Shown: positions 19,598 to 33,576 of the stretch, piece after piece | How the letters are laid out: each line of letters opens with the position of its first letter | Position numbering within the stretch: position 1 is the first letter of the stretch | Origin: Opitutales bacterium | GTDB lineage: Bacteria > Verrucomicrobiota > Verrucomicrobiia > Opitutales > Coraliomargaritaceae | Assembly: GCA_018607135.1 (NCBI GenBank) | Contig: JABBCA010000075.1 | Span: forward strand, 1 to 34,255 | Direction of reading: 5' to 3' | DNA length: 34,255 nt | Position numbers and translations under genes: made by a program | Notes under the pieces: generated by a model | Database searches by the model: none | What the model was told of the DNA's origin: nothing | Seen by the model: the letters and a program-made list of their open reading frames with translations, nothing else

Positions 19598-21305
19598 ATC
19601 TCTTCTCTTCGGATGTAACAGGTGTTTGTGGAGTGTCCAGACAATCAAAAATCATACAAATCGCATCCTGACTTTTTATTTGTTCAGTGCCAGCGATATG
19701 GTAACCTGCCTTTTCAAAAGCTTTAAGAGAGGCCAGATTTTTAGGTCGAATGTATGCATGTATCTTCGAAACAGAAGAGCACAAACCATACAGTTTTGTG
19801 CCTTCACTGATAGCACTTAGCCCATAACCCTTACCCCGAGCATTGGGATCTATATTAATAGAGATCACTGCATAACCCTCAGTTTTAAATAATTCGAAGC
19901 GAACTATGCCACACGGCTCAAAGTGATCACCGTCTTCAATGATTCGTATCCATGAGCAACAATTCGCCAATTGCTTTGTCCACCACGTCAGATGTTCCTG
20001 AAACTCTATCTCATTCTGCGTGAAAGACATTTTGCGGGAGAGAGAATCATTTGCCCATTCCCATGTTTTGTTAACATCCGCGATACAAGCTCTACGAAAA
20101 AACAGCCGATCCAGCAATAAACTCGTGATTACTCGGTCGGCACCATTCCCGTCAATCAGAGATTGTGCCTGATCCCGGCAACATACCGAACCAGGATCGT
20201 CCGCCCACGCCGACAATTGTGTGTTTTTATCTTTAAATTCATCACTATTGAACCAGCCAAGTGGCAACGCCGCTTTGCGCTCCTCGGTGAGCGCGTGCAC
20301 AATCGGCAATTGATTGTCTGCGATGGTAACAATAGCACCGGGCAATCCCAAATAGAGCCACTCCCAGCAAGTGCTGCCACCCGCTGAGATAATTCCATCC
20401 GCCCAGGCATACTGCTCGGGCATATTGCGCGCGTTTTGAATCACTTCAATCGAATGCTGACTTGTAAAGGTTCGTAAAGACTCGATGTGCGGGTTATCTG
20501 CACCAGCTAAGACTCGAATCTCGAGGGGACGCTCACATGCTTGGGTTAACAGTCGAAGGGTTGCTTCGGTGGCATTTTCCGGGTCGGAACCGCCAAGGGT
20601 AATTAGCAAGCGATGGATCGCACCCCACTCACTAGAAATTTCTTTTTCCTCTAAAAATTCTTCACGAAAGAGGCAAAAGGACGCACCTAATAGAGCTTGG
20701 GAATCTGCGATTTCATTATCGTAAATGAATGATTTTTCGGCGTCGAGATTCTGGTTTAAAATCGCATCGCAGCACCAGCGCTCCGAATAGCCAAAATCAT
20801 CGGTGCAGAGCAGAGAAAGACCGGATGCTTTAATTGCTTTCTGATAGTCGAAGCCAAAGTGATAGCCGTCAACCACTAGCCAAGTGTTCGGCGTAGTCGA
20901 ATCCTTGTCTAGTGGTAATGGCGAATGGTGGATGGAGGATGGTGGATTCTGTTCTTCGCTACCGACTCCTGCCCCCTGTCCCCTGGGTCTCGTCCCCTCG
21001 CGGAGCGAGGCTGAGCTTGTCGAAGGCTGACTACTGCTCCCTGCCCCCTGAACAACCGCCAACGTCGCCCGTGCATCCTCCTGACTCCCGGATTTGGCTG
21101 CGATACGAATCACCTCACAACCTTCCTGGACCAAGCGCTCTTCCAATGTATCTGGAAGCTGCGCACAAATGAAAGTCACTTTGCCTCCGCGACGCTGATA
21201 CGCTTGCGCTAGCGCAAGCATCCGCATCACATGGCCAGTGCCAGTAAACCCTCCGGCATCGGCTCGGACAAAGAGCGAACAAGCGTTTTTTTTCGAATAT
21301 TTCAC
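19590..21305 (-). CDS. pseG: PseG-PseH fusion: UDP-sugar hydrolase plus N-acetyltransferase
   Basis: The N-terminal half is PseG: RADAGGFTGTGHVMRMLALA holds the catalytic His of the GxGHxxR loop, followed by TLGGSDPENATEATLRLL and ISAGGSTCWEWLYLGLPG. It removes UDP from UDP-2,4-diacetamido-2,4,6-trideoxy-L-altrose. The C-terminal about 160 residues are a GNAT acetyltransferase (PseH) with IDPNARGKGYG and an FEKAGY end; PseH acetylates the 4-amino group made by PseC. A low-complexity insertion of about 54 residues (about 86-139) interrupts PseG just before WLVVDGYHFG and comes from a repeat element (20889-21050). I chose GTG 21305 (571 residues), just past the upstream DUF5615 stop; GTG 21338 is an in-frame alternative. 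Whether PseG stays active is unknown. Confidence 0.9.
   Translation of the reverse strand: MKYSKKNACSLFVRADAGGFTGTGHVMRMLALAQAYQRRGGKVTFICAQLPDTLEERLVQEGCEVIRIAAKSGSQEDARATLAVVQGAGSSSQPSTSSASLREGTRPRGQGAGVGSEEQNPPSSIHHSPLPLDKDSTTPNTWLVVDGYHFGFDYQKAIKASGLSLLCTDDFGYSERWCCDAILNQNLDAEKSFIYDNEIADSQALLGASFCLFREEFLEEKEISSEWGAIHRLLITLGGSDPENATEATLRLLTQACERPLEIRVLAGADNPHIESLRTFTSQHSIEVIQNARNMPEQYAWADGIISAGGSTCWEWLYLGLPGAIVTIADNQLPIVHALTEERKAALPLGWFNSDEFKDKNTQLSAWADDPGSVCCRDQAQSLIDGNGADRVITSLLLDRLFFRRACIADVNKTWEWANDSLSRKMSFTQNEIEFQEHLTWWTKQLANCCSWIRIIEDGDHFEPCGIVRFELFKTEGYAVISINIDPNARGKGYGLSAISEGTKLYGLCSSVSKIHAYIRPKNLASLKAFEKAGYHIAGTEQIKSQDAICMIFDCLDTPQTPVTSEEKRYE
20889..21050. repeat. Heptamer repeat element inserted in frame in pseG
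   Basis: This stretch adds about 54 codons absent from normal PseG. On the plus strand it begins with heptamer units of the GAATGGT/GGATGGA kind (about 20918-20947). It ends with tracts of the opposite sense, CTCCTGCCCCCTGTCCCCTG and TGCTCCCTGCCCCCTG. Between them lies CTGAGCTTGTCGAAGG, a motif I recall as a dispersed repeat in many bacterial genomes. The two heptamer senses face each other, as around the four-helix-bundle gene at 27784-28167. Boundaries are estimated from where the PseG match breaks. Confidence 0.75.
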
Positions 21306-21309
21306 TGAT

Positions 21310-21684: not shown

Positions 21685-21697
21685 GGGTTCTCAGATC

Positions 21698-21943
21698 TCA
21701 AGCCGTTTGCTCCAACGGAACCTCTATGTAACGCTCACGCGTCATTTCTGCACCATAAGCAAGACACGCAAGAATGTCCTCTCGAGAGAGTTGCGGATAT
21801 TCCTGAAGAATTTCGCTTTCTGTCATTCCATCCGTTAGCATATCCAAAATCAAAGAGACCCATATCCTGTGCCCCTTTACGCAGGGTTTTCCAAAACAGA
21901 CATCGGGATTGATTGAAATGCGGTTTAGATATTCTGCTCTCAT
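21698..21943 (-). CDS. DUF433 protein (probable antitoxin), module 1
   Basis: This product of 81 residues carries the DUF433 pattern: YLNRISINPDVCFGKPCVKGHRIWVSLIL, then LQEYPQLSREDILACLAYGAEMT, the second part being a helix-turn-helix-like segment. The open frame extends to a GTG at 22015, but ATG 21943 gives the usual DUF433 length and start. It precedes a DUF5615 gene, as is typical for this proposed toxin-antitoxin arrangement. Antitoxins of this kind often repress their own promoter; the 106-bp gap before the SDR gene could hold it. Confidence 0.82.
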   Translation of the reverse strand: MRAEYLNRISINPDVCFGKPCVKGHRIWVSLILDMLTDGMTESEILQEYPQLSREDILACLAYGAEMTRERYIEVPLEQTA

Positions 21944-22121
21944 TACATATATTTTGTTTAAAGGGAAGATACTGTCAACTTGTCCTTTGTAGCCGAGTCT
22001 TACTTTTCGCTTCACTACGAAAAATCCAATTTTTCAGATCCTATATCCATGCCGTGCAGCGGGCGAATATCAAAAAGCAATCCAGCAGGGATAAAGTGCA
22101 AATTAAGCATTTCTACTGTCT

Positions 22122-22925
22122 TTACCATGCAGTCCAACCTCCATCTACGGGTAGTGTGGCTCCTGTGACATAGGATGCGGCATCGCTAGCGAGAAAGACT
22201 GCAGGACCCGCAATCTCACTGGCTACGCCAATTCGGCCCAATGGCACCTTCTGGGCTAATTTATCAACAAATGCGGGATTGTCGCGCTCCACTGCGGGTG
22301 CAGGGAATGGCCCGGGACACAGGGCATTCACCCGAATCTTATCTTTGGCAAGTTCGCAAGCAGTGTAGCGTGTTAATTGCAAGAGTGCCGCCTTTGCAGC
22401 ACCGTAAAAGGGTGGATTCGCAGCTTGCGCTGTCTCGTAAACACTTAGGTCGGGGCTCACGAGCCCATACATCGAGGACACATTAATCACCGATGCTCCC
22501 GCGGTGCTATGATCGACGGATCGCCGTAAGAGGGGTAAGGCGGCACGTATCAGCCCAGCAGCCGCCGTGACTGCGATATGATACGACTGCGTGAAGTCCT
22601 CATTAGTTGACACTTCGAGAGTGCCGCCTTTCCCGTAATAGGCATTATTCACGAGCACATCCAAGCGCCCGTGCTTTTTCTCAATATGCTGCAGGGCCTC
22701 AGACACTGCGACGCTGTCGGTCACATCAAATGAGAGCACCGAGGCTTGACCACCGCTTGCTTCAATTTCATCGCAGAGTTTATGTAAGCTGGATTGGTTG
22801 CGACCGTTTAAATAAACCATGCCACCGGCTTGGGCAAATCCATGTGCCATCGCGGAGCCTAGATAGCCCGCCGCTCCCGTTAATAAAACGACCTTTCCTT
22901 TCAAGTGTATTGATATGGGTGTCAT
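22122..22925 (-). CDS. Short-chain dehydrogenase/reductase
   Basis: This 267-residue classical SDR has the cofactor loop TGAAGYLGSAMA, the NNAYYGKG motif in place of NNAG, the serine strand VINVSSMYG, and the catalytic YGAAKAALLQLTR (Tyr-xxx-Lys). It ends YVTGATLPVDGGWTAW as expected. It starts two bases after the aldo/keto reductase stop, so the NeuB-SpsF fusion, the reductase and this SDR form one translational unit. Their company suggests oxidation, reduction or epimerisation of a nonulosonic acid or of its precursor. C8-epimerising oxidoreductases exist in 8-epilegionaminic acid pathways, but that role here is only a hypothesis. Confidence 0.87.
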   Translation of the reverse strand: MTPISIHLKGKVVLLTGAAGYLGSAMAHGFAQAGGMVYLNGRNQSSLHKLCDEIEASGGQASVLSFDVTDSVAVSEALQHIEKKHGRLDVLVNNAYYGKGGTLEVSTNEDFTQSYHIAVTAAAGLIRAALPLLRRSVDHSTAGASVINVSSMYGLVSPDLSVYETAQAANPPFYGAAKAALLQLTRYTACELAKDKIRVNALCPGPFPAPAVERDNPAFVDKLAQKVPLGRIGVASEIAGPAVFLASDAASYVTGATLPVDGGWTAW

Positions 22926-22927
22926 GA

Positions 22928-23854
22928 CTAGTTTTTACGCCATTGTGACGGATCGAGCAACTCAACCGGTAAATGCGGAATTCGTGCGGCAAGTTGCTGC
23001 TGTTGTTCCAAGGTAAGTGGCTGGTAACGTGCCATCTGAAAATTTTGTTCGAGTTGCTCTTTGGTCTCTACACCCACGACTATTGAATCGATCCAATTCT
23101 GCCCAAGGATGTAAGCCATACATAAGTCGGCACGACTTTCACGTGAAAAATCAGCAACGAGCGTATCCAAAAGCGCACAGATTTCAGCCGAATTCACCCC
23201 ACTAATCTGAGGCCAACAATCGGCGGCATTGACCAAAAGTCCCTGAAGATAAATACTCCGCGCATAGATTGTGCAATCCGTTCTGGAGTTCGCCATTCCT
23301 GGAATATCCAACTCGAACCAACGTTTATCCAATAAATTAACCGGAACCTGCACATGCCGAACGAGCGGCTCGGCGAGTGCGGCAGCGGCTTCTTCAGGCC
23401 GATACACCGAGGCCCCAAGCTCACGTATAACACCCTTTTGCTGAAGCTCCACGAGTCGTTGCCAAATGCGCCCTTGATGGGACTGATAGTGCTGCCATCG
23501 GTGTAACATCAACACAGGTAAAGTGCGCAGGCCTAATTCATAGCAAGAGCGATAAACACTGGCATCTACCGCGTCGATGACCGCCTGGTCACTCGCCTCT
23601 TCCGGCAATGATGCCAATGGCGATAATTTGGTAATCAAGCAAACATCTCCAAGTGATAGTCGCTCTAGATTTCGGCCAACGCGTGCTTCGGCTTCCCCAT
23701 AGGCTCGCGCGCAATCGATCGCTCGAACATCGTTGCGAATTGCGCAGTCTAGCAGTTCAAAAACGGAGTCGTCGTTGAGGTGTCCGACGCGATTGGCAAT
23801 GCCATAGCCGTCAATACCCAACTGGGCGGTCCCAAGCGTGAGAGATCGTGCCAT
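22928..23854 (-). CDS. Aldo/keto reductase family protein
   Basis: This is a 308-residue TIM-barrel reductase. The expected catalytic residues are visible: Asp and Tyr in VRAIDCARAYGEAE, Lys in LITKLSPL and His in LPVLMLHRWQHY. The C-terminal IDSIVVGVETKEQLEQN segment binds NADP in this family. Only three bases separate it from the NeuB-SpsF stop and two from the SDR start. In this position it is more likely a sugar-modifying enzyme than a detoxification enzyme. The substrate cannot be told from sequence. Confidence 0.87.
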   Translation of the reverse strand: MARSLTLGTAQLGIDGYGIANRVGHLNDDSVFELLDCAIRNDVRAIDCARAYGEAEARVGRNLERLSLGDVCLITKLSPLASLPEEASDQAVIDAVDASVYRSCYELGLRTLPVLMLHRWQHYQSHQGRIWQRLVELQQKGVIRELGASVYRPEEAAAALAEPLVRHVQVPVNLLDKRWFELDIPGMANSRTDCTIYARSIYLQGLLVNAADCWPQISGVNSAEICALLDTLVADFSRESRADLCMAYILGQNWIDSIVVGVETKEQLEQNFQMARYQPLTLEQQQQLAARIPHLPVELLDPSQWRKN

Positions 23855-23857
23855 GTT

Positions 23858-25642
23858 TTAATTCGGGATGCGCGTTTCACGATTGAGCATATCAATCAGC
23901 CCTTGATCGGTTTCATACTTGATTACCATCCCATTATTAATCGACGCAATCGCAGGGTTTTGATCCAAAACATCGAAAACGTTTTTCGCGGTTGAGGGCA
24001 GCGACCGCTTATCGAGTTCCGCATACAGACGGTTGAACATTTCCAAGTCTTCCGGGTAGTCCAAGGTCAATCGATAATCGCGAATCAATGACTCGGGGAG
24101 ATGGACCATATTCACTTTAAAGCGATCAGCATTATTGCGCATATAAAAACCCATGTACTCCGAGAATTTCGCCTGACCAAGCAATTCGATGACTCGCCGC
24201 AGAGCGGATACGTTGTAAATTTCCGAGTTCGTGCCCACCGCAAATTTAATCGGTGCGGTAAAATCAGCACCACAGGCAAAATGAGACTCTAGCATGAAGT
24301 GCACAATCTCCGGTGATACGACCGGGCAATCGCCTGTAACCCGAATGACGACATCGATACCGTGCTGATCACACGCGTTTAAGTAACGAAGGATCACATC
24401 GTCGGGATCTCCTTTCACAAATTTCACCCCGGCAGCTTGTGCATTCACATCAAGAACCGCGTCTTCCTCCACGGTCGAAGTCGCTAAGACCACGACGCTT
24501 AAGCCATTAATCATCTGAACATTTTGCAAGCAGCGCTCTACGGAAGGCACCCCATGGATGGGCAACTTTGCCTTCTGCTTCAGACGCGAGGATTTCATGC
24601 GACAAGCGACAATACACCCGATAGACGCATCCTTAAAATCACCCGCTTGCAGCACTTTGTTTTCTTCGATATCATGACGTAGCACTTTGCCGGTTTCTTG
24701 CAGTGCCTTCAGTTGATGCCAAGTGAGCCCTTTTTCATCCGAGCGTCTGAAAATCAAGTCCTTCTTAGCGATTAGCTCTCCAGCACGCATTGCCCGTTTC
24801 ACAATCGGGAACTGATAACTCTTCTCTAAATATTCCGCTTCCTTCGGTAGAATAAACTCCCCCTCAAAGGCTGTGGCGAGGCTTGAGATGTTTGCGAGCA
24901 ATTGAATAAATTGCTCCGGCTCCAAAGCTGAAAATTTATCATAAGCCGCTTTTTCTCGGCTCAAGCACACATGCTTTTCAATATATTCGCAGCCTAAACC
25001 AGCGCCAAGTAAAGGGATATGAAGCGCAAAGGGGTCTTCGGCGTCCACATGATCGGCGAGGCAAAGCGCACGACCAGGGAAGGCCTGCTTTAACACTTCG
25101 ATTTTTCCGAGACCGGTGTCACGAATTGCGGTCGGATAACTTTGATAGCCAAGCTGTAAAATTAGCTGTTTCGGCTTTAATAATAAATACTGTGCGACCA
25201 TCTGTTCGATCTCCGTCAACGGATACCCGGAAATATTTACGATGAGTTCCAGCCCTTCCATCACGCCGCCGAAAAGTCCCTCATAAATTTCAGTGTTATC
25301 CAAAACCGATGCCTGAAGTTTCACGCCTCGAATATTGCCTTTGTTTTGTTTGACGACATCCACCCCAAATGAGTCGAAGATATCAATCCAGACAGGCCCA
25401 ATTTTTGCAGTCGCATGATCGATGCACGCCGCCCAGTCCTTCGCTGAAATTTGGAGTTTTTGATACACTTCAAAATACTCAAATGTGGGCAAGGCTAAGG
25501 TCTCCGGGCTAAAAGGCTGAAACTTAACTGCCTTACCCGCATATTCAAAAGTCGCCACTTGATCGATCAACGCGTTGATCTGTGAAACATCGCCACCATG
25601 AAAGTTGGCGAATTCTGCAATAATGTGAGGTAGGCTTTTCAT
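23858..25642 (-). CDS. NeuB-like synthase fused to SpsF-like cytidylyltransferase
   Basis: This 594-residue fusion joins two steps of nonulosonic acid synthesis. Residues 1-270 form a NeuB-type barrel with IIAEFANFHGGDV, KFQPFSPETLALP, LQLGYQSYPT, LADHVD and YIEKHVCLSRE; several standard motifs are altered (NFHGG instead of NHNG). A SAF domain follows at about 275-340. From about 345 an SpsF/COG1861-type cytidylyltransferase begins: IGCIVACRMKSSRLKQK, VVLATSTVEEDAVL, then VIRVTGDCPVV. It could synthesise a nonulosonic acid and activate it with CTP. It is distinct from PseI and sits in a tight pseC-fusion-AKR-SDR cassette. Its SpsF domain is the only CMP-sugar synthetase candidate in the window. 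Exact product unknown. Confidence 0.88.
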   Translation of the reverse strand: MKSLPHIIAEFANFHGGDVSQINALIDQVATFEYAGKAVKFQPFSPETLALPTFEYFEVYQKLQISAKDWAACIDHATAKIGPVWIDIFDSFGVDVVKQNKGNIRGVKLQASVLDNTEIYEGLFGGVMEGLELIVNISGYPLTEIEQMVAQYLLLKPKQLILQLGYQSYPTAIRDTGLGKIEVLKQAFPGRALCLADHVDAEDPFALHIPLLGAGLGCEYIEKHVCLSREKAAYDKFSALEPEQFIQLLANISSLATAFEGEFILPKEAEYLEKSYQFPIVKRAMRAGELIAKKDLIFRRSDEKGLTWHQLKALQETGKVLRHDIEENKVLQAGDFKDASIGCIVACRMKSSRLKQKAKLPIHGVPSVERCLQNVQMINGLSVVVLATSTVEEDAVLDVNAQAAGVKFVKGDPDDVILRYLNACDQHGIDVVIRVTGDCPVVSPEIVHFMLESHFACGADFTAPIKFAVGTNSEIYNVSALRRVIELLGQAKFSEYMGFYMRNNADRFKVNMVHLPESLIRDYRLTLDYPEDLEMFNRLYAELDKRSLPSTAKNVFDVLDQNPAIASINNGMVIKYETDQGLIDMLNRETRIPN

Positions 25643-25656
25643 AATCTATAACTTGC

Positions 25657-26991
25657 TTAGAACAATTGCTTTACTGCTTTTACCACAGATTCAACATCCT
25701 CATCGGACATCGTGGGATAGAGGGGCAAACTGAGCGCTTTGGCGTAATACGCTTCTGCATTTGGACATTTCCCCACAGTGTAACCATAGGTTTCCCGATA
25801 CCACGGCTGTAGATACACGGGGATATAGAGGACTTGGGTGCCGACTCCCTGGGCGCGAAGTGCGGTCATCACTTCGGTTCGGGTTTTACCTAATGCCTCA
25901 AAATCGATTTGAACGGTATAGAGATGCCACGAAACGCCTTGCGTTTCGGATGGCGGATTGTGGATAGCGGATGGGGAACAGATTTCAGGGGACGGGGTGC
26001 TGGAATCAGGGGGCAAAGAATCCTGTTGACCGACTCCTGACGCCCGACGCTTGTCCACTGGTGTCTGCAACCAAGATAACTCTTCGAAAGCTTCATTATA
26101 TCGGGCAACAATCTCTTGACGGCGCTGAATAAAACCTGGCAGCTTCTTTAGCTGGCTGCGACCAAGGGCACATTGGAAATCGGTAATTCGAAAATTATAG
26201 CCGAGGTCCTGCATTTCATAGGTCCAGGGACCCACTTCAGCAGTCAGGGGGCAGGGATCGGGAGGCAGGTTACTGTCACCTGTTTCCTGTTTCCTGTTTC
26301 CTGTTCCCTCTCTTCCAAAAACGCGAAATGCTTCTGGATCACGAACCATTCCATGCATGCGCAAAAGTCGGGCTTTCTCAGCATACTCAGGATTATCTGT
26401 TACCAGCACCCCCCCCTCACCCGTCGTCATGGTTTTGACTGGATGAAACGAAAACGTCGTCATGTCGGCCCAAGGATGCCCCCCGAGTTTGTAGGCTTTT
26501 CCCTCGTACTCAAAACCACCTCCGGTTCCGTGGCATGCGTCTTCAATAACCACAGCACCCCGTTCACGAGCAACCCGTGCAATCTCCGGCATATCTGCGG
26601 CCTGCCCACCGAAAGCGACTGCAACGACTGCTTTTGTATCGTCGCGCCAATTTGCTTCGAGTGCGCGAGGGCACAAATTATACGTGAGCGGATCAATATC
26701 TGCGAAGTCTGGCGTCGCTCCAACGTAAGCCGCGCAATTTGCTGATGCTAGAAAGGTATTTGGAGTCGTCACGACTCTGTCACCAGATTTAACACCAGCA
26801 ACGATCATCGCGATATGAAGTGCTGCGGTGGCATTGCACATGGCAACCGCATACTTCGCACCAACCATCTCGGCAAACTCGGCTTCAAAGGCATCGACTT
26901 CGGGGCCACAGGTAAGGAAGTCTGATTTGAGAGCAGCGACTACGGCTGCGATATCGTCGTCGTCGATTGATTGTTTACCGTATGGGATCAT
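25657..26991 (-). CDS. pseC: PseC: UDP-4-keto-6-deoxy-L-AltNAc C4 aminotransferase with two repeat insertions
   Basis: This PLP aminotransferase (444 residues, against about 380 usual) converts the PseB product to UDP-4-amino-4,6-dideoxy-L-AltNAc. It opens IPYGKQSIDDDDIAAVV and shows VVIEDACHGTGG (D151), TTFSFHPVKTMTTGEGG (K186), then GPWTYEMQDLGYNFRITDFQ and GTQVLYIPVYLQPWYRE, all classic for PseC. Two low-complexity inserts, about residues 225-253 (TGNRKQETGDSNLPPDPC) and 315-351 (QQDSLPPDSSTPSPEI...), derive from heptamer repeats and keep the frame open. Both lie in regions likely to be surface loops. No Shine-Dalgarno sequence is visible; a heptamer tract lies just upstream of the start. 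The downstream fusion gene starts 14 bp away. Confidence 0.92.
   Translation of the reverse strand: MIPYGKQSIDDDDIAAVVAALKSDFLTCGPEVDAFEAEFAEMVGAKYAVAMCNATAALHIAMIVAGVKSGDRVVTTPNTFLASANCAAYVGATPDFADIDPLTYNLCPRALEANWRDDTKAVVAVAFGGQAADMPEIARVARERGAVVIEDACHGTGGGFEYEGKAYKLGGHPWADMTTFSFHPVKTMTTGEGGVLVTDNPEYAEKARLLRMHGMVRDPEAFRVFGREGTGNRKQETGDSNLPPDPCPLTAEVGPWTYEMQDLGYNFRITDFQCALGRSQLKKLPGFIQRRQEIVARYNEAFEELSWLQTPVDKRRASGVGQQDSLPPDSSTPSPEICSPSAIHNPPSETQGVSWHLYTVQIDFEALGKTRTEVMTALRAQGVGTQVLYIPVYLQPWYRETYGYTVGKCPNAEAYYAKALSLPLYPTMSDEDVESVVKAVKQLF
25939..26049. repeat. Heptamer repeat element in pseC, insertion 2
   Basis: About 37 extra codons relative to normal PseC. On the plus strand the stretch runs through GGATTGTGGATAGCGGATGG (about 25952-25971), then AGGGGACGGGG and CAGGGGGCAAAG, and turns to the opposite sense at CCTGTTGACCGACTCCTGAC (about 26022-26041). 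It shows heptamer periodicity and a facing arrangement. The length keeps the reading frame and contains no stop on the coding strand. Limits are estimated. Confidence 0.75.
26233..26319. repeat. Heptamer repeat element in pseC, insertion 1
   Basis: About 29 extra codons. The plus strand has GGGGGCAGGGATCGGGAGGC (about 26247-26266) followed at once by CACCTGTTTCCTGTTTCCTG and further TTTCCTG heptamers to about 26310. The two senses face each other with almost no loop, so the RNA could form an imperfect hairpin inside the pseC message. The reading frame is intact. Limits are estimated from the PseC match. Confidence 0.78.
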
Positions 26992-26997
26992 AAAGTC

Positions 26998-27061
26998 AGG
27001 TGGCAGGTTTAAGGAGGCAGGGGACAGGAAGCAGGCGACGGGAACAGGGGACGGGGTTTAA
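26998..27061. repeat. Heptamer repeat tract upstream of pseC
   Basis: Plus-strand units include GGCAGGT, GGCAGGG, GACAGGA, AGCAGGC and GACGGGA in register, ending ACGGGGTTTA. All are in the same sense as the tract at 27712-27795. It occupies the gap between the DUF5615 stop and the pseC start, where a ribosome-binding site for pseC would be expected; none is visible. Confidence 0.75.
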
Positions 27062-27081
27062 TGTTACTGGTGGATGTGAAA

Positions 27082-27432
27082 TTACTGTGGAAATGTCAGC
27101 GCTTCAAGGTGATCCGCATATATTTCAACTAAATCGTGTGAGCGGATTTGCTGCTCGATGGCAGGCCAACGCGCTTCCATTACCCTCAGTAAATCGTTTT
27201 TACGTATATTTCCAAGGCGTATCCAAATCACTTTAGGCGGAGGCCCATGCCTGAGCAGGCGATCAAAAAAATCAGTGTCCCGCGTCAATACGACATAATC
27301 ATTTTCTCGTGCCCATTGCCAGAGCAAGGAATCGGAAGCCTGCTCTGCGATTTGTGAAGCGTGAATATAACCTAGGCCAAGCCTAACACCGAGGGAGAAC
27401 GGAAGATTCTCATCAATCAGCAGACGCTTCAC
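27082..27432 (-). CDS. DUF5615 PIN-like protein (probable toxin), module 2
   Basis: This product of 116 residues begins at GTG 27432 (MKRLLIDENLPFSLGVRLGL) and contains YVVLTRDTDFFDRLL, giving the DENL and TRDxDF motifs of DUF5615. GTG overlaps the stop of the DUF433 gene by four bases (GTGA), so the pair is translationally coupled. It is clearly different in sequence from the first module at 21310-21684, so the two arrived separately rather than by recent duplication. RNase toxin activity is predicted from the family only. Confidence 0.87.
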   Translation of the reverse strand: MKRLLIDENLPFSLGVRLGLGYIHASQIAEQASDSLLWQWARENDYVVLTRDTDFFDRLLRHGPPPKVIWIRLGNIRKNDLLRVMEARWPAIEQQIRSHDLVEIYADHLEALTFPQ

Positions 27433-27650
27433 GAAACGAGTTCTATGCTAGAGTGGATTTCGCCGACCCTGGCGGCATAAGCCAAAGAGGCCAAGATATC
27501 CTCACGGGACAAATTGGGAAATGCTTCCAAAAGATCTTCCGTGGAATCGCCGGCACTTAGGTGGGACAGCACCGTCTGGACAGTGATTCGGGTGCCCTTG
27601 ATGACAGGCTTACCATTACAAATATCAGGGGACCATTCGATTCTATCCAT
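27429..27650 (-). CDS. DUF433 protein (probable antitoxin), module 2
   Basis: This 73-residue protein is almost entirely the DUF433 domain: MDRIEWSPDICNGKPVIKG, TRITVQTVLSHL, and the segment DLLEAFPNLSREDILASLAYAA. It overlaps the DUF5615 gene by four bases. The module lies between pseC and the four-helix-bundle gene and, with it, breaks the otherwise tight pseB-pseC order. Its upstream gap (27651-27783) is mostly heptamer repeat. Confidence 0.88.
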   Translation of the reverse strand: MDRIEWSPDICNGKPVIKGTRITVQTVLSHLSAGDSTEDLLEAFPNLSREDILASLAYAARVGEIHSSIELVS

Positions 27651-27711
27651 AGTTCACAGATACTCTGAGTGTTAAATTTTGCAAGCGGAATGAATGTAGC
27701 AAACGCTACGA

Positions 27712-27795
27712 GATCGGGAGGCAGGTTGCAGGGAACAGGAGGCAGGTTGCAGGGAACAGGAGGCAGGTGACAGGTTTCGGGGATCAGGAGGCTGG
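27712..27795. repeat. Heptamer repeat tract, left side of four-helix-bundle gene
   Basis: The plus strand repeats GGCAGGT, TGCAGGG and AACAGGA in order. This 21-bp triplet occurs twice exactly (27720-27740 and 27741-27761), then GGCAGGTGACAGGTTTCGG and a decayed end. The tract runs into the last codons of the four-helix-bundle gene, which encode LTPAS. Its sense is opposite to the tract on the other side of that gene. Confidence 0.88.
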
Positions 27796-28167
27796 AGTTA
27801 GGAGCCATTGTTTTGGATTATTCAGCATTGCTCCAAGTAAACGGCCGACTTGCTGATTCGTTGTGACTAAAGCTTCGTGTTGTGCATCAGTGATGTAACC
27901 ACAGTCACGAGCAAAATCAAGAGAGGTCTCGGTTTCATTGCATTCGCCGTCGCAGTCAGTAAGTTTACTTATAAAATGAGCTTCGTAACGACGTTTTGCC
28001 CAAGCTTCACGTAGGTTCATCGGCACAGAGCGAGACGAGCGGCGGATCTGTGAAATTAGAGCAAATTTCTCCTCCGAAGGAAAAGCCTTCGAAAGCTCAA
28101 ATATATCCATAGCAAGCTGGTAAGACAATTGATACGCTTTGAGTTCTTTCGCATTCTGCACGCTCAT
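27784..28167 (-). CDS. Four-helix-bundle protein (23S rRNA intervening-sequence/S23 family)
   Basis: This 127-residue protein fits the S23/IVP family first found in intervening sequences of 23S rRNA genes and related to the Avd accessory protein of diversity-generating retroelements. Family features are AYQLSYQLAMDIFELSKAFPSEEKFALISQIRRSSRSVPMNLREAW, read in pieces, and ETETSLDFARDCGYI. The family has no known enzymatic activity; a nucleic-acid-binding bundle is the usual model. Here it lies between pseB and a DUF433/DUF5615 pair and not in rRNA. Heptamer repeats touch both ends: the 3' end reads into one tract, and another stops ten bases before the start codon. This suggests gene and repeats travel as one unit. 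Confidence 0.88.
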   Translation of the reverse strand: MSVQNAKELKAYQLSYQLAMDIFELSKAFPSEEKFALISQIRRSSRSVPMNLREAWAKRRYEAHFISKLTDCDGECNETETSLDFARDCGYITDAQHEALVTTNQQVGRLLGAMLNNPKQWLLTPAS

Positions 28168-28176
28168 AATTTTTAT

Positions 28177-28231
28177 CCAGGGGCAGGTTTCCTGCTTCCC
28201 GTCACCTGTTCCCCGTCTGCTGCCGCCTGCT
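28177..28231. repeat. Heptamer repeat tract, right side of four-helix-bundle gene
   Basis: After CAGGGGCAGGT the plus strand turns to the opposite sense with TTCCTGC, TTCCCGT, CACCTGT and TCCCCGT in register, then CTGCTGCCGCCTGCT. It abuts the pseB stop at 28232. With the tract at 27712-27795 it forms an inverted pair around the four-helix-bundle gene. Confidence 0.82.
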
Positions 28232-29248
28232 TCACACGGTGAAGCCTAGATCTACGTGCGCTTTAATCAGCTTTCGCAGATTGTCCACGGTCTCGAAATC
28301 TTCGTTGTCGCCTGAGGTATAGCAAAAACCACGGGGAACGGGCTTCGCGTTGAATTGCTTAATATAATCTGCGAGTTTCCATCGCGTTACCTGTGGTAAA
28401 ATGACATAATACTCGCCCAGATCATACGTCGTAAAGGAGTCGGAACTGGTGATCATTTCCTCGTGGATTTTCTCACCTGGGCGAATACCAATCACAGGGT
28501 GTTCACACTCTGGACCAATTGCTTCAGCAACATCAGTAATTCGGTAAGACGGAATTTTGGGAACATACAATTCTCCACCCCAAGCGTGCTCCATCGCATG
28601 CAGCACCATGGCAACACCATCTTCCAAGGATATATTAAAACGTGTCATAGTCGCGTCTGTGATCGGTAGCACCCCAGTGCTTTTGCGATTTAAGAAGAAT
28701 GGAATCACCGAACCATTCGAACCCATGACATTACCGTAGCGAACGACAGAGAACTTTACGTCTTGTTGTCCCACGATATTATTGGCCGCAATGAAAAGCT
28801 TATCTGAGGCCAGCTTGGTCGCACCATACAGATTGATAGGCGCACAGGCCTTGTCAGTGGACAGCGCAACGACATCCGTCACCGTGCTGCCTGGCGTCAA
28901 GGCGGCTTTAATGACATTCTCCGCGCCACCGATGTTTGTCTTTACACATTCATCCGGATTATATTCAGCAATATGAACATGCTTCATCGCAGCTGCGTGT
29001 ATCACACAATCGACACCGGTAAAGGCGCGTTTCAAGCGTTCCAAATCGCGAACATCTCCAATAAAAAAACGAATCATCGGATATTGATCCGCTGGGTACT
29101 CTTGGGCCATGACGAACTGCTTCTGCTCATCTCGCGAATAAATAATCAAGCGTTTTACATCCGGCCACTTCTGCAAGATAGTCTTCGTGAGTTCTTTGCC
29201 TAACGAGCCTGTGCCGCCAGTAATGAGGATGCTTTTTCCGTTTAACAT
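28232..29248 (-). CDS. pseB: PseB: UDP-GlcNAc 4,6-dehydratase (inverting)
   Basis: This is the first enzyme of pseudaminic acid synthesis. It converts UDP-GlcNAc to UDP-2-acetamido-2,6-dideoxy-L-arabino-hexos-4-ulose by dehydration and C5 epimerisation. At 338 residues it has the NAD loop ITGGTGSLGKE and the catalytic STDKACAPINLYGATK with D132, K133, Y141 and K145, in agreement with FlaA1/PseB numbering. It also has AAAMKHVHIAEYNP and the late IRPGEKIHEEMI. Tyrosine is kept here, unlike in the two other dehydratases of the window. It has an A/T-rich leader with no Shine-Dalgarno sequence. It is separated from pseC by about 1.2 kb of four-helix-bundle and DUF433/DUF5615 genes. Confidence 0.95.
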   Translation of the reverse strand: MLNGKSILITGGTGSLGKELTKTILQKWPDVKRLIIYSRDEQKQFVMAQEYPADQYPMIRFFIGDVRDLERLKRAFTGVDCVIHAAAMKHVHIAEYNPDECVKTNIGGAENVIKAALTPGSTVTDVVALSTDKACAPINLYGATKLASDKLFIAANNIVGQQDVKFSVVRYGNVMGSNGSVIPFFLNRKSTGVLPITDATMTRFNISLEDGVAMVLHAMEHAWGGELYVPKIPSYRITDVAEAIGPECEHPVIGIRPGEKIHEEMITSSDSFTTYDLGEYYVILPQVTRWKLADYIKQFNAKPVPRGFCYTSGDNEDFETVDNLRKLIKAHVDLGFTV

Positions 29249-29308
29249 AATGGATTTTTTATAAGAATATTTGGATTTAATTGAGGCTGAATCTTAAAAG
29301 AACTAGTA

Positions 29309-30223
29309 TTATTTTGACAAAGCGCCGTAGAGATTATCAGGAAACGTCCATACTCGTTTTCCACGTAAGCTTTGGTTTGCGAACATATCGAGAATGAAAC
29401 CTGCGTCTATGCAGACAGTTTTTTGATTTTTAAACTGATCGATTAGTGGTGCTGATCCAAGTCCACAACCGAAAAGTGCGATATCTGGAGCATGGGGCAA
29501 CTGCGAAGGGTCTATCGTTTCCAAAACTGCAGTGTGCGGGCTTACCTCAATGAAATCAACATTAGCAGCTCCCATTGATCGAAAAGCTTTCTCTAGACCT
29601 GATCGCCTCATCTCATCAAGCCATGTCACGGCAACGATATTTCGTCCCTTCACGGCTTTTTCAAAATCGGGGCCGGCTAAAAATGCATATACCCCAAAAA
29701 AGGTGAAATAGTTTTCAGCATTGAATGTAATTTTGTTTTCACGAAAAAACTTCATCATCTTGTCGGTGTACTCAAGGTATGTATGTCGATCATTGAATGC
29801 TGGAGCAATCAACCCCTTTTTAGAAATTGACTGCGCGGCGGAGGTCCAAATACGACGGATCTTCTTAAAATCCTTTCCTTCGAGTTTTTCCCTTGAGAAG
29901 CCATCGTTTTTTTTGCCGTTATAACTGATTTTCGCCATCAATCCTGTATTTCGAAGGATCGTTTTAATGAAAAAGTTAATCTTTCGCCGAAGCCCTTTCG
30001 GCACCGCACGTCCAACACATAGAGTAAATTCTCCATGACAGACCCGTAGTATCGGGAAATATTTTTTTTGATCCAGAGCTTCAAAAATAATCGCCACCAT
30101 TCTCTCATAATGCGTCTCACTTAGCTCGTCGCTAAAATTATAGAAATGCCGCACTTGGGTGTCTTTCTCTTGTTTTGTGTAATGTGGGAACCGCTCACGG
30201 ATCAGATGGAGATTTTCTTTCAT
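29309..30223 (-). CDS. Putative GT-D-type glycosyltransferase (uncertain)
   Basis: I do not firmly recognise this 304-residue soluble protein. Two regions recall the GT-D/DUF1792 glycosyltransferase fold: FPILRVCHGEFTLCVG near residue 55, comparable to the RxGDGE start, and DIALFGCGLGSAPLIDQF followed by VCIDAGFILDMFANQS near the end, comparable to the closing GxGxGS and D-hG parts. The basic middle (YNGKKNDGFSREKLEGKDFKK) is lysine rich. Base composition looks lower in GC than in neighbours such as the APH-like gene, which may point to separate transfer. It lies between the flippase and pseB genes with short gaps, so it is likely part of the operon. Confidence 0.45.
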   Translation of the reverse strand: MKENLHLIRERFPHYTKQEKDTQVRHFYNFSDELSETHYERMVAIIFEALDQKKYFPILRVCHGEFTLCVGRAVPKGLRRKINFFIKTILRNTGLMAKISYNGKKNDGFSREKLEGKDFKKIRRIWTSAAQSISKKGLIAPAFNDRHTYLEYTDKMMKFFRENKITFNAENYFTFFGVYAFLAGPDFEKAVKGRNIVAVTWLDEMRRSGLEKAFRSMGAANVDFIEVSPHTAVLETIDPSQLPHAPDIALFGCGLGSAPLIDQFKNQKTVCIDAGFILDMFANQSLRGKRVWTFPDNLYGALSK

Positions 30224-30244
30224 AGTATTAAAAATTAAGAAGCA

Positions 30245-31516
30245 TTAGTCTTCGCATTGGATATCCCTACGCGTAACGAAAAAAACAAAGCCGAGGAGTA
30301 CCGCAGAATAAAGTGCAGTCACTCCAACCCGAGCCACTGCTACACCAACGATTCCATAATCCAATTGGATCGCAAGAATACCAGCAACCCAAATCAGGCC
30401 GACCGATACAACACCGACTACAGTCGGCACCCAATTTTTGCGCAATGCAGGGATAATTGCACTACTACCCGAATGAAATTGAAAAACTGCTCCCAATGCA
30501 ACGACTTGCGCAGCAGGTATTCCAGCTGTATAGGCAGGTAATAAAGCTTTTACGGCAATTGGGATCAGATACCATGCCAACAGGGCGAAAGGTAGCATCA
30601 CAGCCATATTGAGCCCTAACCCGATCCAAACGAAACGGCGTAAACTACGACTCGAACCACTCGCCCCAAACGCTCCTGCAATTCGTGGGTACAATAGCAT
30701 GTTAATTGACATTGGAAACACATTTACCGCGCTTGCAACGATTCCAGCCAAAGCAAAATACCCCAAATCTTCAGCAGTCAAAAACGAAGCAATTATCGTT
30801 CGATCTGCTACCGACATCCATCCAAATACAACTCCTGAGATCATCACAGGTAGACCGATTTTTGAAAGCACACGGACATCACTCCAATTCGCACTAGCGT
30901 TCGCCTCTAACGGGACGCTACGACGCAAGCCAAGCCAAACCACAAAATTGCTTCCTGCCATTTTCAAAACCATACCCCAAACTCCCCAAAAGGCGGTAGA
31001 CAATGAGCTTACTAGATTCCAAATATTTTGAGCGTGAAGTGATTTCCCGACTGATTCGAAGCTCAACATTCCTCGATGCACCGCACTCAAATGCAGTTGA
31101 AGCGGATTGAACAAAAGCAAAGGGATCAGAGCAATTGACACTAGTGGAAAAAGTGAATTATCCGCACGAAAGAAAAATACAATCACCGAAAGAACTCCCA
31201 AAAACGCGCCAATACCCCCAATCCATCTCGCGGCCATTCCAGAAGCATCCACAAGACGCTGTGCTTGCTCTGGGTCTCCTTTAGCCCGAAAAAGGGGCAA
31301 ATTTCGACTCAAGCCGCTAAAAACACCCAACTGTAGAATGCCAAGATAAGTTGGTATCAGCATAATCGCTTGAGTAACGCCAAGTTCCTCTGGAGCTAAA
31401 AATCGAGCAGCAACAAGTCCTCCAATCAAACCCAGAAGTGGCGTCGATAATTTCGCTGACAACAACAGGAGGTCACCTCTTTGAGATTTAATTTTTTTGA
31501 GGAAGAACGAAAGCAT
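30245..31516 (-). CDS. Wzx-type polysaccharide flippase (MOP superfamily)
   Basis: The 423 residues are mostly membrane spans, about eleven or twelve. The start KIKSQRGDLLLLSAKLSTPLLGLIGGLVAARFLAPEELG (read in parts) is typical of polysaccharide transport proteins, whose first helix pair ends in a LxPxxxG motif. The middle LPVMISGVVFGWMSVADRTIIASFL matches the seventh-helix region with its conserved D-R-hydrophobic run. It would move the lipid-linked repeat unit to the periplasmic face of the inner membrane. It pairs functionally with the Wzy-like protein at 15785-17089. A neighbouring gap of 21 bp indicates co-transcription with the downstream gene. Confidence 0.87.
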   Translation of the reverse strand: MLSFFLKKIKSQRGDLLLLSAKLSTPLLGLIGGLVAARFLAPEELGVTQAIMLIPTYLGILQLGVFSGLSRNLPLFRAKGDPEQAQRLVDASGMAARWIGGIGAFLGVLSVIVFFFRADNSLFPLVSIALIPLLLFNPLQLHLSAVHRGMLSFESVGKSLHAQNIWNLVSSLSTAFWGVWGMVLKMAGSNFVVWLGLRRSVPLEANASANWSDVRVLSKIGLPVMISGVVFGWMSVADRTIIASFLTAEDLGYFALAGIVASAVNVFPMSINMLLYPRIAGAFGASGSSRSLRRFVWIGLGLNMAVMLPFALLAWYLIPIAVKALLPAYTAGIPAAQVVALGAVFQFHSGSSAIIPALRKNWVPTVVGVVSVGLIWVAGILAIQLDYGIVGVAVARVGVTALYSAVLLGFVFFVTRRDIQCED

Positions 31517-31553
31517 TTGCGAATAAAGACTATCTAAATACCTAGGATATTAA

Positions 31554-32372
31554 TTAGCACCAGTTTGCAGAAAATCCGAGCTTACGAAGTCGCTGGTTTT
31601 GAGAAGAAAAAGCCGCTTTCATCGAACCAAATGCGATCGGCTTCTCCTTATGGCTTCCAGCATTGAAAGCCTTTTCAGTTAAAAGACCGCACTTTTGTAT
31701 TTCTAGAAAATCACAAACGCTTTCAAAGTTCTTTTCAGAATTCTTAAAAAAATCAGCCGAATCAATCAGCAGCAACTGATCTCGAGAGAAAACGGAAAGC
31801 CATTGCTCCAGCGCACTGGCATAGTCTCCCCACTTAAAATAAAATTTAGCAGGTAGGTCAGGGCAATCGCCATTACGCCAACGCTCAATCTCACTTTCGG
31901 AGAAGACTTCATTAATCGGACGTTTTTCTAATCCACAACGCTTCTCATGATAATAATGCGATACCGCACGTGCAGCAGGCTCACGCATGACAATAATTAA
32001 TTTCGCCGCTGGAGTAATTGAAGCAACATGCTCTGGAGCCTGTAACGAATACAAATAGGTCGGCGTTGCTTCCCCACAAAGCGCTTTATTCCGTGCCAAT
32101 GTTGAGCGTAAAGGAAAATGCCTCTGATACCAATCAACACCTCGACTAAACTGTGCCGTAAAGAACATCACCTCTTTTGGCATCGAACCCGTAATTTGTG
32201 GGTGTAAACATAAATAGTTAAATAATGAAGTCGTCCCCGCCTTTTGAGCTCCGATTATTAGGAAATCTGGAAGAGCCCGGGAACTAGCATTGAACTCACG
32301 ACATTTCAAATACCCTTCTTTCGCCCACGGGGGAATCTTACCATTGATGGCTAATCTAAGTTTATGTAGCAT
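31554..32372 (-). CDS. Sulfotransferase (heparan-sulfotransferase-like)
   Basis: This protein of 272 residues carries FLIIGAQKAGTTSLFNYL (5'-phosphosulfate loop, residues 38-54) and KLIIVMREPAARAVSHYYH (3'-phosphate site, R130 and S138), the classic pair of Sulfotransfer_1 proteins. It should use PAPS to sulfate a sugar. The open frame continues upstream to 32510, but that part only translates a heptamer repeat (SHPPFAIRYSLFAL), so I chose ATG 32372, where the family's usual start MLHKLRLAINGKIPPW begins. No Shine-Dalgarno sequence precedes it; the repeat may have replaced the original leader. Confidence 0.87.
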   Translation of the reverse strand: MLHKLRLAINGKIPPWAKEGYLKCREFNASSRALPDFLIIGAQKAGTTSLFNYLCLHPQITGSMPKEVMFFTAQFSRGVDWYQRHFPLRSTLARNKALCGEATPTYLYSLQAPEHVASITPAAKLIIVMREPAARAVSHYYHEKRCGLEKRPINEVFSESEIERWRNGDCPDLPAKFYFKWGDYASALEQWLSVFSRDQLLLIDSADFFKNSEKNFESVCDFLEIQKCGLLTEKAFNAGSHKEKPIAFGSMKAAFSSQNQRLRKLGFSANWC

Positions 32373-32382
32373 GTGCAAGGCG

Positions 32383-32440
32383 AATAGCGAATAGCGGATG
32401 GCGAATGGTGGATGACTAGTAGAGAAGGCGGATGGATGAC
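32383..32440. repeat. Heptamer repeat tract (GCGAATA/GCGGATG type)
   Basis: On the plus strand GCGAATA, GCGAATA, GCGGATG, GCGAATG and GTGGATG follow each other in perfect 7-bp register, then GCGGATGGATGAC after a short break. It fills the gap between the GT4 stop (32443) and the sulfotransferase start. It is the same heptamer type as seen inside pseG (20918-20947) and pseC (25952-25971). Confidence 0.88.
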
Positions 32441-32442
32441 TG

Positions 32443-33462
32443 CTACGCGATATCCCGATAAACCGTCGCATAGGCTTGTGCGGTCGCATCGGCTGAATAG
32501 CGCTTCGCATTCTCTAGTCCAAGATCGATAAGCTCAGTTCGATAATCTTGATTCTTTAAAAGGCGTCGAAAGCCTTCACGGATAGAATCGACCTCGAGTG
32601 GATCCACAAAACAAGCACCTTCTCCGGCAATTTCTCTCAATGTCGAAGTATGACTCGTTAAAACAGGACGTCCTGTCACCTGCGCTTCAAGGACTGGCAA
32701 GCCAAAACCTTCGTAGGTGGAGGCAAAGGCGACCAAGTCAGACTCACGGTAAGCTTGCAGTACTTCTGCATCCGAAAGTCGCCCGAGCTCGTTAAATGAG
32801 AGTTCTTGTTGCTCGAACCGCTCTCGTTGCCCCTCAGACAATTGGCCAATGATTTGAACATCCACTGAAAAGCCTACCAAGGCAGCACACATTCGTTCGA
32901 TATTCTTCTGTGGTTGTGTGCCGATCATTAACACAGAAGGCCGCTCAGGCCATTCTTTAGGCGTAAAGCTAAAGTCATTTGAAATACAATTGGGAACCGT
33001 GATCACTTTGTCAGCTAAGTTGCCCAACTCTTCCTGCAACTCACTTTGAATGGATTTTGAAATGGTGGTGACTGCAGTTGCAAGCCGCACTGGCAATACA
33101 TACCATAATGCTCTAAAGACTTTACGAGCCAACCCGGTCTTCGGTCGGAGTGGTGCTAAATCATGAATCGTCAGAACACTTCGTCGTCCAAGCAACGCGG
33201 GGACAAGATAATGAATATCTCCAGTAATATGAATCACGTCGGCTCGTAGAAATAATGCCTGGAGGCAATTTAACAAACGTGGAATGAGTCCTCGGCTGTG
33301 AAACCATGAATGTACCACACGGACTTCAATATCAGCAGGAAGTGCTGCTCGAATGTCGTGAAAGAGGCGCTCAAAGCTGTGAAAGCCTTCTTGAGGTTTT
33401 CGGGTTAGGTGAATGACGCGGAGACGAGCAGAGCTCGTCGTGGGAAGGTGTGAAAGTTGCAA
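32443..33462 (-). CDS. GT4-family glycosyltransferase with non-ATG start
   Basis: This GT-B enzyme has VITVPNCISNDF, VLMIGTQPQKNIERM and the donor-site ASTYEGFGLPVLEAQVTGRPVL (E-x7-E). The N-terminal LTRKPQEGFHSFERLFHDIR and HITGDIHYLVPALLGRRSVLTIHDL resemble a GT4 group found in other polysaccharide loci. No ATG exists in the first part of the frame. TTG 33462 (339 residues) is the first usable start, 13 codons before the strand where homologues usually begin. A heptamer tract lies 40 bp upstream, so the native 5' end may have been altered. This is the first gene of the long minus-strand series. Confidence 0.82.
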   Translation of the reverse strand: MQLSHLPTTSSARLRVIHLTRKPQEGFHSFERLFHDIRAALPADIEVRVVHSWFHSRGLIPRLLNCLQALFLRADVIHITGDIHYLVPALLGRRSVLTIHDLAPLRPKTGLARKVFRALWYVLPVRLATAVTTISKSIQSELQEELGNLADKVITVPNCISNDFSFTPKEWPERPSVLMIGTQPQKNIERMCAALVGFSVDVQIIGQLSEGQRERFEQQELSFNELGRLSDAEVLQAYRESDLVAFASTYEGFGLPVLEAQVTGRPVLTSHTSTLREIAGEGACFVDPLEVDSIREGFRRLLKNQDYRTELIDLGLENAKRYSADATAQAYATVYRDIA

Positions 33463-33500
33463 AGTGGGAAAAGTGGAAATGGACCTAAGAAAAGCTACCA

Positions 33501-33576
33501 GAGGTCGGGCGACAGGGAGCAGGGGAAACCTAGATACAGGAGTCAGAATTCAGAAGACAGGAGTCAGTCCCTGACC
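33501..33576. repeat. Heptamer repeat tract upstream of the operon's first gene
   Basis: Units such as GACAGGG, GTCAGAA, TTCAGAA, GACAGGA and GTCAGTC are in 7-bp register on the plus strand, ending CCCTGACC. An opposite-sense partner, TTCTGAATACTGAA, lies at about 33643-33656, so the structure again has facing halves, here around a roughly 65-bp spacer. Confidence 0.7.

Follow-up and report, generated by a model that had tools for sequence, protein, structure and literature searches.

S23-family genes framed by facing short-tandem arrays in an Opitutales genome and other bacteria: a candidate selfish element

The S23 gene and the arrays of the window

The window considered here, the whole 34,255-nucleotide stretch of contig JABBCA010000075.1 that was analysed, carries near its 28-kb mark a gene of the S23/IVP (four helix bundle) family enclosed by two arrays of the heptamer CAGGNNN, and further arrays of this and other units occur elsewhere in it. 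The features are as follows.

27784..28167, minus strand: S23/IVP gene (four helix bundle, PF05635), 127 aa; Pfam E 6e-30, TIGR02436 E 3.5e-28
27710..27807, plus strand: CAGGNNN heptamer array, the 3' arm in the sense of the gene; profile score 90.4, also called by a tandem repeat finder
28187..28233, minus strand: facing CAGGNNN array (CCTG on the plus strand), the 5' arm in the sense of the gene; profile score 38.1
26995..27060, plus strand: further CAGGNNN array, past a DUF5615 gene; profile score 54.4
26238..26315: gene-less facing pair in the DegT/PseC-like gene, CAGG rightward at 26238-26275 and CCTG leftward at 26273-26315; profile scan, in-frame extra residues
25974..26072: second gene-less facing pair in the DegT/PseC-like gene, CAGG rightward at 25974-26015 and CCTG leftward at 26018-26072; profile scan, extra residues
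20943-20998 and 21027-21090, minus strand: two CAGG-class tracts of the same sense in the PseG-like gene (19590-21338); profile scan
20917..20961, plus strand: GATGGTG/GCGAATG-type array adjoining the PseG tracts; tandem repeat finder and array reading
32379..32421, plus strand: GCGAATR array, another unit, carried by none of the genome's 7 S23 matches
33499..33567, plus strand: CAGGNNN-class tract of CAGGAGTCAGAATTCAGAAG type; profile score 46.7

The 127-aa open reading frame scores 104 bits against a cut-off of 33.8 for PF05635 and 98 against 24 for TIGR02436, which places it within the S23/IVP family, and the tract scores come from a period-7 profile scan whose null, six 34-kb order-2 Markov windows, reached a maximum of 20.4. 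The original prediction had the gene directly bounded by heptamer tracts of opposite sense with one of them entering its last codons, and this is what is found: the arrays at 27710-27807 and 28187-28233 face each other, and the 3' arm overlaps the final 24 nt of the reading frame. The arms form an inverted pair that is 71% complementary over 41 nt, and the flanks of the gene pair with an SW score of 34 (z 4.2), the runner-up among the 29 window reading frames scored reaching 22. The arms also pair in the predicted RNA fold of the element, which is weakly better than that of shuffled sequences (z -1.54; 5 of 100 shuffles as good). On one side the gene has a DegT/PseC-like aminotransferase gene (25657-26991) and a DUF5615 gene for neighbours, and on the other a PseB-like gene (28232-29248). 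Between the arms there is no transposase gene, the S23 gene being the sole reading frame of at least 80 aa that spans the stretch, and no transposase, recombinase or reverse transcriptase is encoded by the element among reading frames of at least 80 aa compared with Pfam at E 0.001. At this E value the S23 gene matches PF05635 and PF22296 only, with no Y1 HUH transposase as in REP/RAYT.

Both facing pairs of the DegT/PseC-like gene coincide with residues that are missing from solved homologues, and the PseG-like protein has extra residues relative to solved homologues at its own array tracts, where a run of the GATGGTG-type unit stands ahead of the CAGG-class tracts. The suggestion that the inserts in pseC and pseG are the same facing tracts without a gene is borne out for pseC, with its two facing pairs, and only partly for pseG, whose tracts run in the same sense. 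The CAGG class is local, because 26 of its 35 hits in the genome (up to 2 mismatches; 5 with the reversed control) lie within the window contig, from 20961 to 33561; either it multiplied in the vicinity of its S23 gene, or the cluster as a whole was acquired from a donor in which the class is abundant.

Two DUF5615 genes (21310-22015 and 27082-27650) adjoin array-bearing spots of the pseudaminic acid cluster, and the first of them, with a DUF433 partner, has the look of a toxin-antitoxin pair. Neither the GATGGTG array at 20917-20961 nor the GCGAATR array at 32379-32421 has an S23 gene with such a unit among the seven of the genome. The GCGAATR class is present in 7 of 38 genomes (own included), every one of which has an S23 match, one of these below the cut-off.

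The genome as a whole (3.53 Mb, 106 contigs) has seven PF05635 matches, and by eye all seven S23 genes found are directly framed by facing short-tandem arrays with units of 6-8 nt.

L001: gltB-S23-gltD, unit AGAAGTT
L002: the window S23 gene, unit CAGGNNN
L003: S23 gene at a contig end, unit GATRCGG
L004: S23 gene, 6-mer unit of GATTAA type
L005: S23 gene, unit TTCGAAG/TTGGACG
L006 and L007: two related S23 genes, CTGAAACG 8-mers

When the 5' flank is compared with the reverse complement of the 3' flank, six of these genes give z values of 4.2 to 12.5, and L003, truncated by the contig end, gives a pairing score of 78 over its remaining 70 nt. It had been reasoned that S23 genes of the same genome without flanking heptamers would speak against such an element; all seven have facing arrays, of 6-, 7- or 8-nt units. 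A single heptamer family for the whole genome is ruled out by the diversity of units among the seven S23 genes, which include 6-mers and 8-mers. The idea of one mobile family with gene-bearing and empty forms is accordingly kept in its outline (the facing unit, the gene-less facing pairs, and a site that is filled or empty, described below) and given up as to a single family, because S23 lineages have units of their own of 6, 7 or 8 nt.

Facing arrays at S23 genes of other genomes

The 130-nt flanks of S23 genes were compared in inverted (facing) and in direct orientation, with a threshold of z at least 4. PF05635 was found in 18 of 38 genomes (own included), in 17 of them over the cut-off, and in this set of own and related genomes 53 of 73 usable S23 genes (orthologues included) have inverted flanks and 7 have direct ones. 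The 73 genes are what remains of 89 listed PF05635 matches after 12, mostly fragments or below the cut-off, were omitted and 4 of the 77 used were dropped for short flanks; L036 and L037, discussed below, are both counted. Among the best 80 of 569 confirmed matches from named genomes, which come from Verrucomicrobiia, Chlorobiota, Omnitrophota, Clostridia, Synergistaceae, flavobacteria, Acidobacteria, Alphaproteobacteria, Patescibacteria, a Methanophagales archaeon and others, 37 of 77 usable genes are inverted and 6 direct, three having been dropped. Inverted flanks were found at all 40 S23 genes fetched from Mesorhizobium, with no direct case, and at 13 of 20 from five named genomes, again with none direct (20 of the 25 S23 matches had loci). 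These sets are not to be summed, because a few loci occur in two of them.

By the same measure other reading frames reach z at least 4 in 0 of 18, 4 of 113 and 3 of 241 cases, and four of the five top scores among the 113 belong, by eye from sequence, to further S23 genes. Short of the threshold are 20 of the 73 own and related S23 genes and 40 of the 77 usable among the best 80 of 569, some of them from short arrays. An earlier version of the test, with cross-pairs as its null, placed 26 of 77 genes above the 99% line; as some cross-pairs have a unit in common, this version is conservative. The association of S23 genes with facing arrays is firm.

In nine of the 27 plasmid records with S23 matches, five flank scores are 54-68, at loci with the units GGGAGTA, CAGGTGA, GGGAACA and, twice, TAGGGTG, and four are 14-28, one of these low-scoring loci having direct arrays. 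By eye, L170, L103 and L140 are minority elements in which both arrays run in the same direction. On two plasmids, pANA02 of Anabaena sp. 90 (L168) and pPg_01 of Pseudanabaena galeata (L170), S23 lies within a cas operon, between cas6 and cas4 and in the sense of these genes, with facing arrays in L168 and direct ones in L170. L067 (G036:C18:352119-355752) has two S23 genes with different units between what appear by eye to be ATP synthase subunit genes, and at G019:C12:137824-138441 a 309-aa frame holds two consecutive S23 matches.

Unit and protein are co-inherited. In different-site pairs of the 90 genes with z at least 4 (3931 pairs), array similarity rises with protein identity (Spearman 0.125, with none of 500 permutations as high). 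An array similarity of at least 40 is seen in six of the seven such pairs above 70% protein identity, three of the seven being the G031 copies described below, and in at most 1% of pairs under 30%, while array similarity on the wrong strand is near background. At Mesorhizobium sites that recur across genomes each site has, by eye, its own unit (TAGGCAG, TAGGGGAG/TAGGGCAG, TAGTGAG, GCGAATA and GAAYTGAA). One Mesorhizobium site (L281-L310) has by eye either a 7-mer (TAGGCAG) or an 8-mer (TAGGGCAG); most genomes use a single kind there, which looks like homogenisation of the units.

It might be supposed that short-tandem arrays are a by-product of slippage that gathers in tolerant intergenic spots, that S23 genes land in the same spots, and that the protein recognises no unit. 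Arrays do grow and shrink between orthologues, and they also occur in genomes that lack S23. However, the background is low, with 2 arrays in ~172 kb sampled from S23-bearing genomes and 0 in ~159 kb from S23-less ones (20 stretches, too small a sample to compare the two kinds of genome), and yet arrays stand on both sides of S23 genes. It weighs heavily that slippage gives no facing orientation, such as the 53 against 7 and 40 against 0 reported above, and it does not explain why, at different sites, the unit follows the protein. This explanation is considered very improbable.

Many of the units share a form. In gene sense, YAG occurs in the cycle of 31 of 50 distinct 7-mer consensus units, where shuffled letters give 14.3 +- 3.2 with a maximum of 24 in 300, and its complement CTR occurs in only 7 of the 50. 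Exceptions to this polarity are the TAATCC and TCTTAC classes (L004, L053-L055, L061), with a C-rich 5' side. A purine-rich 5' arm could be favoured as a ribosome-binding sequence.

Copies, filled and empty sites, and gene-less arrays

Genome G031 has three loci (L009, L025 and L060) that match one another at 91-93% identity along 219-453 bp and have unrelated surroundings; their homology begins and stops inside AAAGGCAC arrays, and L060 is without part of S23. Two more near-identical S23 genes of this genome (L038, L039) lie at contig ends. L036 and L037 were ruled out as recent copies, since both represent one 6309-bp sequence present on two contigs and give no evidence of movement. Empty target sites had also been proposed as something to look for, and the gltB-gltD junction supplies them: of the 24 junctions read among the 30 found, four (G000, G001, G002 and G021) have the element (431-451 nt), 15 have only a short spacer (18-52 nt), and five have a gene-less spacer of 68-167 nt. 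By eye, the gene-less junctions of G014 (L204) and G024 (L202) have facing heptamer-like runs of another unit, and in those of G015, G022 and G019 the runs are less clear or one-sided. The gene pglX is split by the element in L008 and L077, at profile positions 269|277 and 971|973. One S23 lineage lies inside or at the start of pglX (the BREX methylase) in several phyla and at recurring positions (L008, L076, L077, L079, L082, L083, L094), a placement checked on both sides for L008 and L077 and on one side for the other five. We infer from sequence comparison that the element moves.

Where the two neighbours are co-oriented, S23 lies in their sense in 46 of 48 cases in own and related genomes (orthologues included) and in 54 of 55 in the named set (best 80 of 569). 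Of single neighbours in these two sets, 118 of 133 and 125 of 136 run in the S23 direction, and other neighbouring reading frames of the same loci agree in 73 of 91 and 192 of 231 cases.

This strong sense bias might be expected of a retro-element in which S23, as a homologue of the DGR protein Avd, supplies a cellular reverse transcriptase with its own hairpin RNA, whose cDNA then enters transcribed regions in the sense strand. The window S23 protein is indeed homologous to bAvd (PF22296, E 2.3e-10), it matches the Avd profile NF033474 at E 9.2e-7 (29.1 bits, below the cut-off of 80), and PF05635 is common in DGR cassettes (PMC10053308, in part). However, in the 38 genomes searched, where presence of a reverse transcriptase means a PF00078 match, only 10 of the 18 genomes with S23 have one (as do 2 of the 20 others), and there is no PF00078 match in G031, which has the clearest recent copies, in G002 (9 S23 matches) or in G021 (8 S23 matches), all at a completeness of 94-99%. 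The sole PF00078 match of the own genome is on another contig (C62) and not beside the window S23 gene. A reverse transcriptase of the PF00078 kind is ruled out as a necessary partner in general by G031, G002 and G021, and dependence on one is an improbable reading of the element. The earlier idea of an RNA-level route of insertion fares unevenly: it is hinted at by the sense-strand bias, and a reverse transcriptase acting in trans is not needed in several genomes.

Gene-less arrays are best described in Mesorhizobium, where a facing pair with arms 3-254 nt apart is present in 18 of 20 array loci (one such locus, L271, has an extra tract that forms a divergent neighbour) and a stretch of ~90 bp with both arms is repeated at many other places. 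They can be old and static, because at one gene-less site the pair, as judged by eye, is kept in 29 of 30 genomes (reference included), with varying unit number. TAGGCAG arrays are present in 68 of 99 Mesorhizobium genomes with S23 and in 11 of 20 without an S23 match (p 0.30, not significant), with mean copy numbers of 12.6 and 4.65 (one-sided p 0.042). A rule of no arrays without S23 is ruled out by these 11 genomes. Two unit classes searched in the 38 genomes occur in 11 of 18 S23-bearing and 0 of 20 S23-less genomes, a difference confounded with genome size.

An effect of S23 in trans was sought in 29 of 119 Mesorhizobium genomes, those with S23 types read or without S23, where the cognate S23 is that of site A as typed by eye and its own locus is excluded from the array counts. 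Genomes with the cognate S23 have a median of 15 arrays elsewhere (13 genomes) against 4 in those without it (16 genomes; one-sided p 0.0085), and in independent contrasts computed on the tree of a single locus (n 27) the correlation r is 0.51 (one-sided p 0.0033). Three genomes are at odds with this: G073 and G053 lack the cognate S23 and have 33 and 30 hits, and G039 has it and shows none elsewhere. The proposed check of whether heptamer number rises with S23 thus shows higher copy numbers (12.6 against 4.65) and higher cognate medians (15 against 4), with no significant difference in the mere presence of arrays; abundant heptamers in S23-less genomes, which were to count against the idea, were encountered in part, in those 11 of 20 Mesorhizobium genomes.

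The S23 protein is under purifying selection: dN/dS, computable in 17 of 21 S23 pairs, is 0.04-0.14 in 16 (five pairs with dS over 1), and 0.23 in the recent copies L009/L025. Many S23 genes keep the same site throughout a genus and are strongly constrained by purifying selection, a pattern as compatible with a host function as with selfishness. The main rival to a selfish element is a host-serving RNA module, in which S23 and the hairpin arms would regulate or process the mRNA of their own operon (by autoregulation or by RNase III cleavage between adjacent genes), the arrays would be kept by selection, and gene-less pairs would be ordinary hairpins or terminators. Besides the genus-wide fixed sites and low dN/dS, it draws on the nearly constant co-direction of S23 with both neighbours, on the intergenic Mesorhizobium site where 29 of 30 genomes retain a gene-less pair, and on the cutting of 23S rRNA intervening sequences by RNase III (PMC4990558, in part). 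Such a module would not, however, be expected to place copies of the same element in unrelated surroundings within G031, one of them carrying an S23 deletion, nor to be wanting at gltB-gltD in most of the relatives read, nor to insert within pglX coding regions, and local regulation has no need of lineage-specific units and dispersed gene-less copies. On balance it appears rather unlikely.

Proposed account and comparison with known systems

The likeliest account, which we hold to be probable though by no means secure, is a selfish element related to the intervening sequences of 23S rRNA whose S23 protein recognises its own arrays. The element would consist of a 5' short-tandem array, the gene of the S23/IVP four-helix bundle, and a mirror-image array. 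Its arms would base-pair into a hairpin once transcribed (or when the DNA is single-stranded), and the S23 protein, a pentameric ring in the solved member, would bind the repeated unit, often YAGNNNN in gene sense. Binding may then promote the copying or insertion of its own element with the help of host enzymes, and S23 may act in trans on gene-less arrays that share its unit. The CAGG tracts of the window would be local gene-less derivatives of the element at 27.7-28.2 kb.

A broader proposal is put forward tentatively, as a possibility only: that S23 is the trans-acting factor of bacteria-wide selfish elements without transposase or reverse transcriptase, its ring reading a YAG-type triplet every 7 (or 6, 8) nt on its own hairpin RNA with a spelling specific to the lineage, and that the heptamers of cyanobacteria, xanthomonads, rhizobia and others are gene-less progeny. 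A ring that reads repeated triplets would be somewhat like TRAP, which reads GAG/UAG repeats.

Were S23 genes and heptamers tied in this way they would have a common explanation, in which each S23 gene predicts a binding unit and each unit class a cognate S23. S23 genes with facing arrays point to an unrecognised kind of mobile element and to a source of the short repeats scattered through bacteria. If the element moves without transposase or reverse transcriptase, some new mechanism that copies DNA or RNA into chromosomes must exist; if it does not move, there is an overlooked conserved RNA module in many operons, cas and BREX genes included.

Several known systems share part of this arrangement. 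Rickettsia palindromic elements are gene-less palindromic inserts in frame within coding genes, and in this they resemble the in-frame gene-less inserts of the PseC-like gene of the window; they differ from these inserts in sequence, size and tandem structure, and we know of no link between them and S23. In REP/RAYT inverted copies of a repeat flank a single gene, further copies of the repeat occur dispersed and apart from the gene, and the RAYT is a Y1 tyrosine transposase. The elements here are unlike REP/RAYT in that S23 is a four-helix bundle, for which no catalytic activity is known to us, and in that their ends are tandem arrays. Structures of S23 proteins have been solved and, to our knowledge, no function is known. 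With the DGR protein Avd the window S23 protein shares a fold family and related sequence; unlike a DGR, it falls below the Avd cut-off, and the only PF00078 match of its genome is on another contig rather than adjacent.

Dispersed heptamers have themselves been reported as unexplained intergenic sequence (PMC4692102 and PMC4679880, in part). GGGAATC in Xanthomonas and GGGGATT in Nostoc are mostly intergenic, with 70 and 75 convergent heptamer pairs in two Xanthomonas genomes, and the authors generally saw no link to mobile elements (PMC4692102, in part). By term search of the portions available, the term S23 is absent from that paper and from the one on TAACTGA in Beggiatoaceae (PMC4679880). 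The S23 proteins with a solved structure include XCC0516 of X. campestris (2gsc), and the Xanthomonas S23p of known structure forms a toroidal homopentamer (PMC4990558, in part). In the literature searched, judged mainly by titles and abstracts, S23 genes are not joined to heptamer arrays beyond the Coxiella IVS.

The closest likeness is to the intervening sequences of 23S rRNA in Leptospira and Coxiella, which have an S23-family open reading frame within inverted repeats. The Coxiella IVS has been called a selfish element, with an S23p reading frame, inverted repeats and excision by RNase III; in C. burnetii a variable number of tandem GACAGAT heptamers stands just ahead of the reading frame, and a role in mobility for the IVS reading frame is an older idea in print (PMC4990558, in part). 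Unlike these, the elements described here lie between or inside protein genes (the window element, judged by its DegT/PseC-like and PseB-like neighbours, is not in a 23S rRNA gene), both of their arms are short-tandem arrays, and their S23 lineages have units of their own and gene-less forms that are dispersed.
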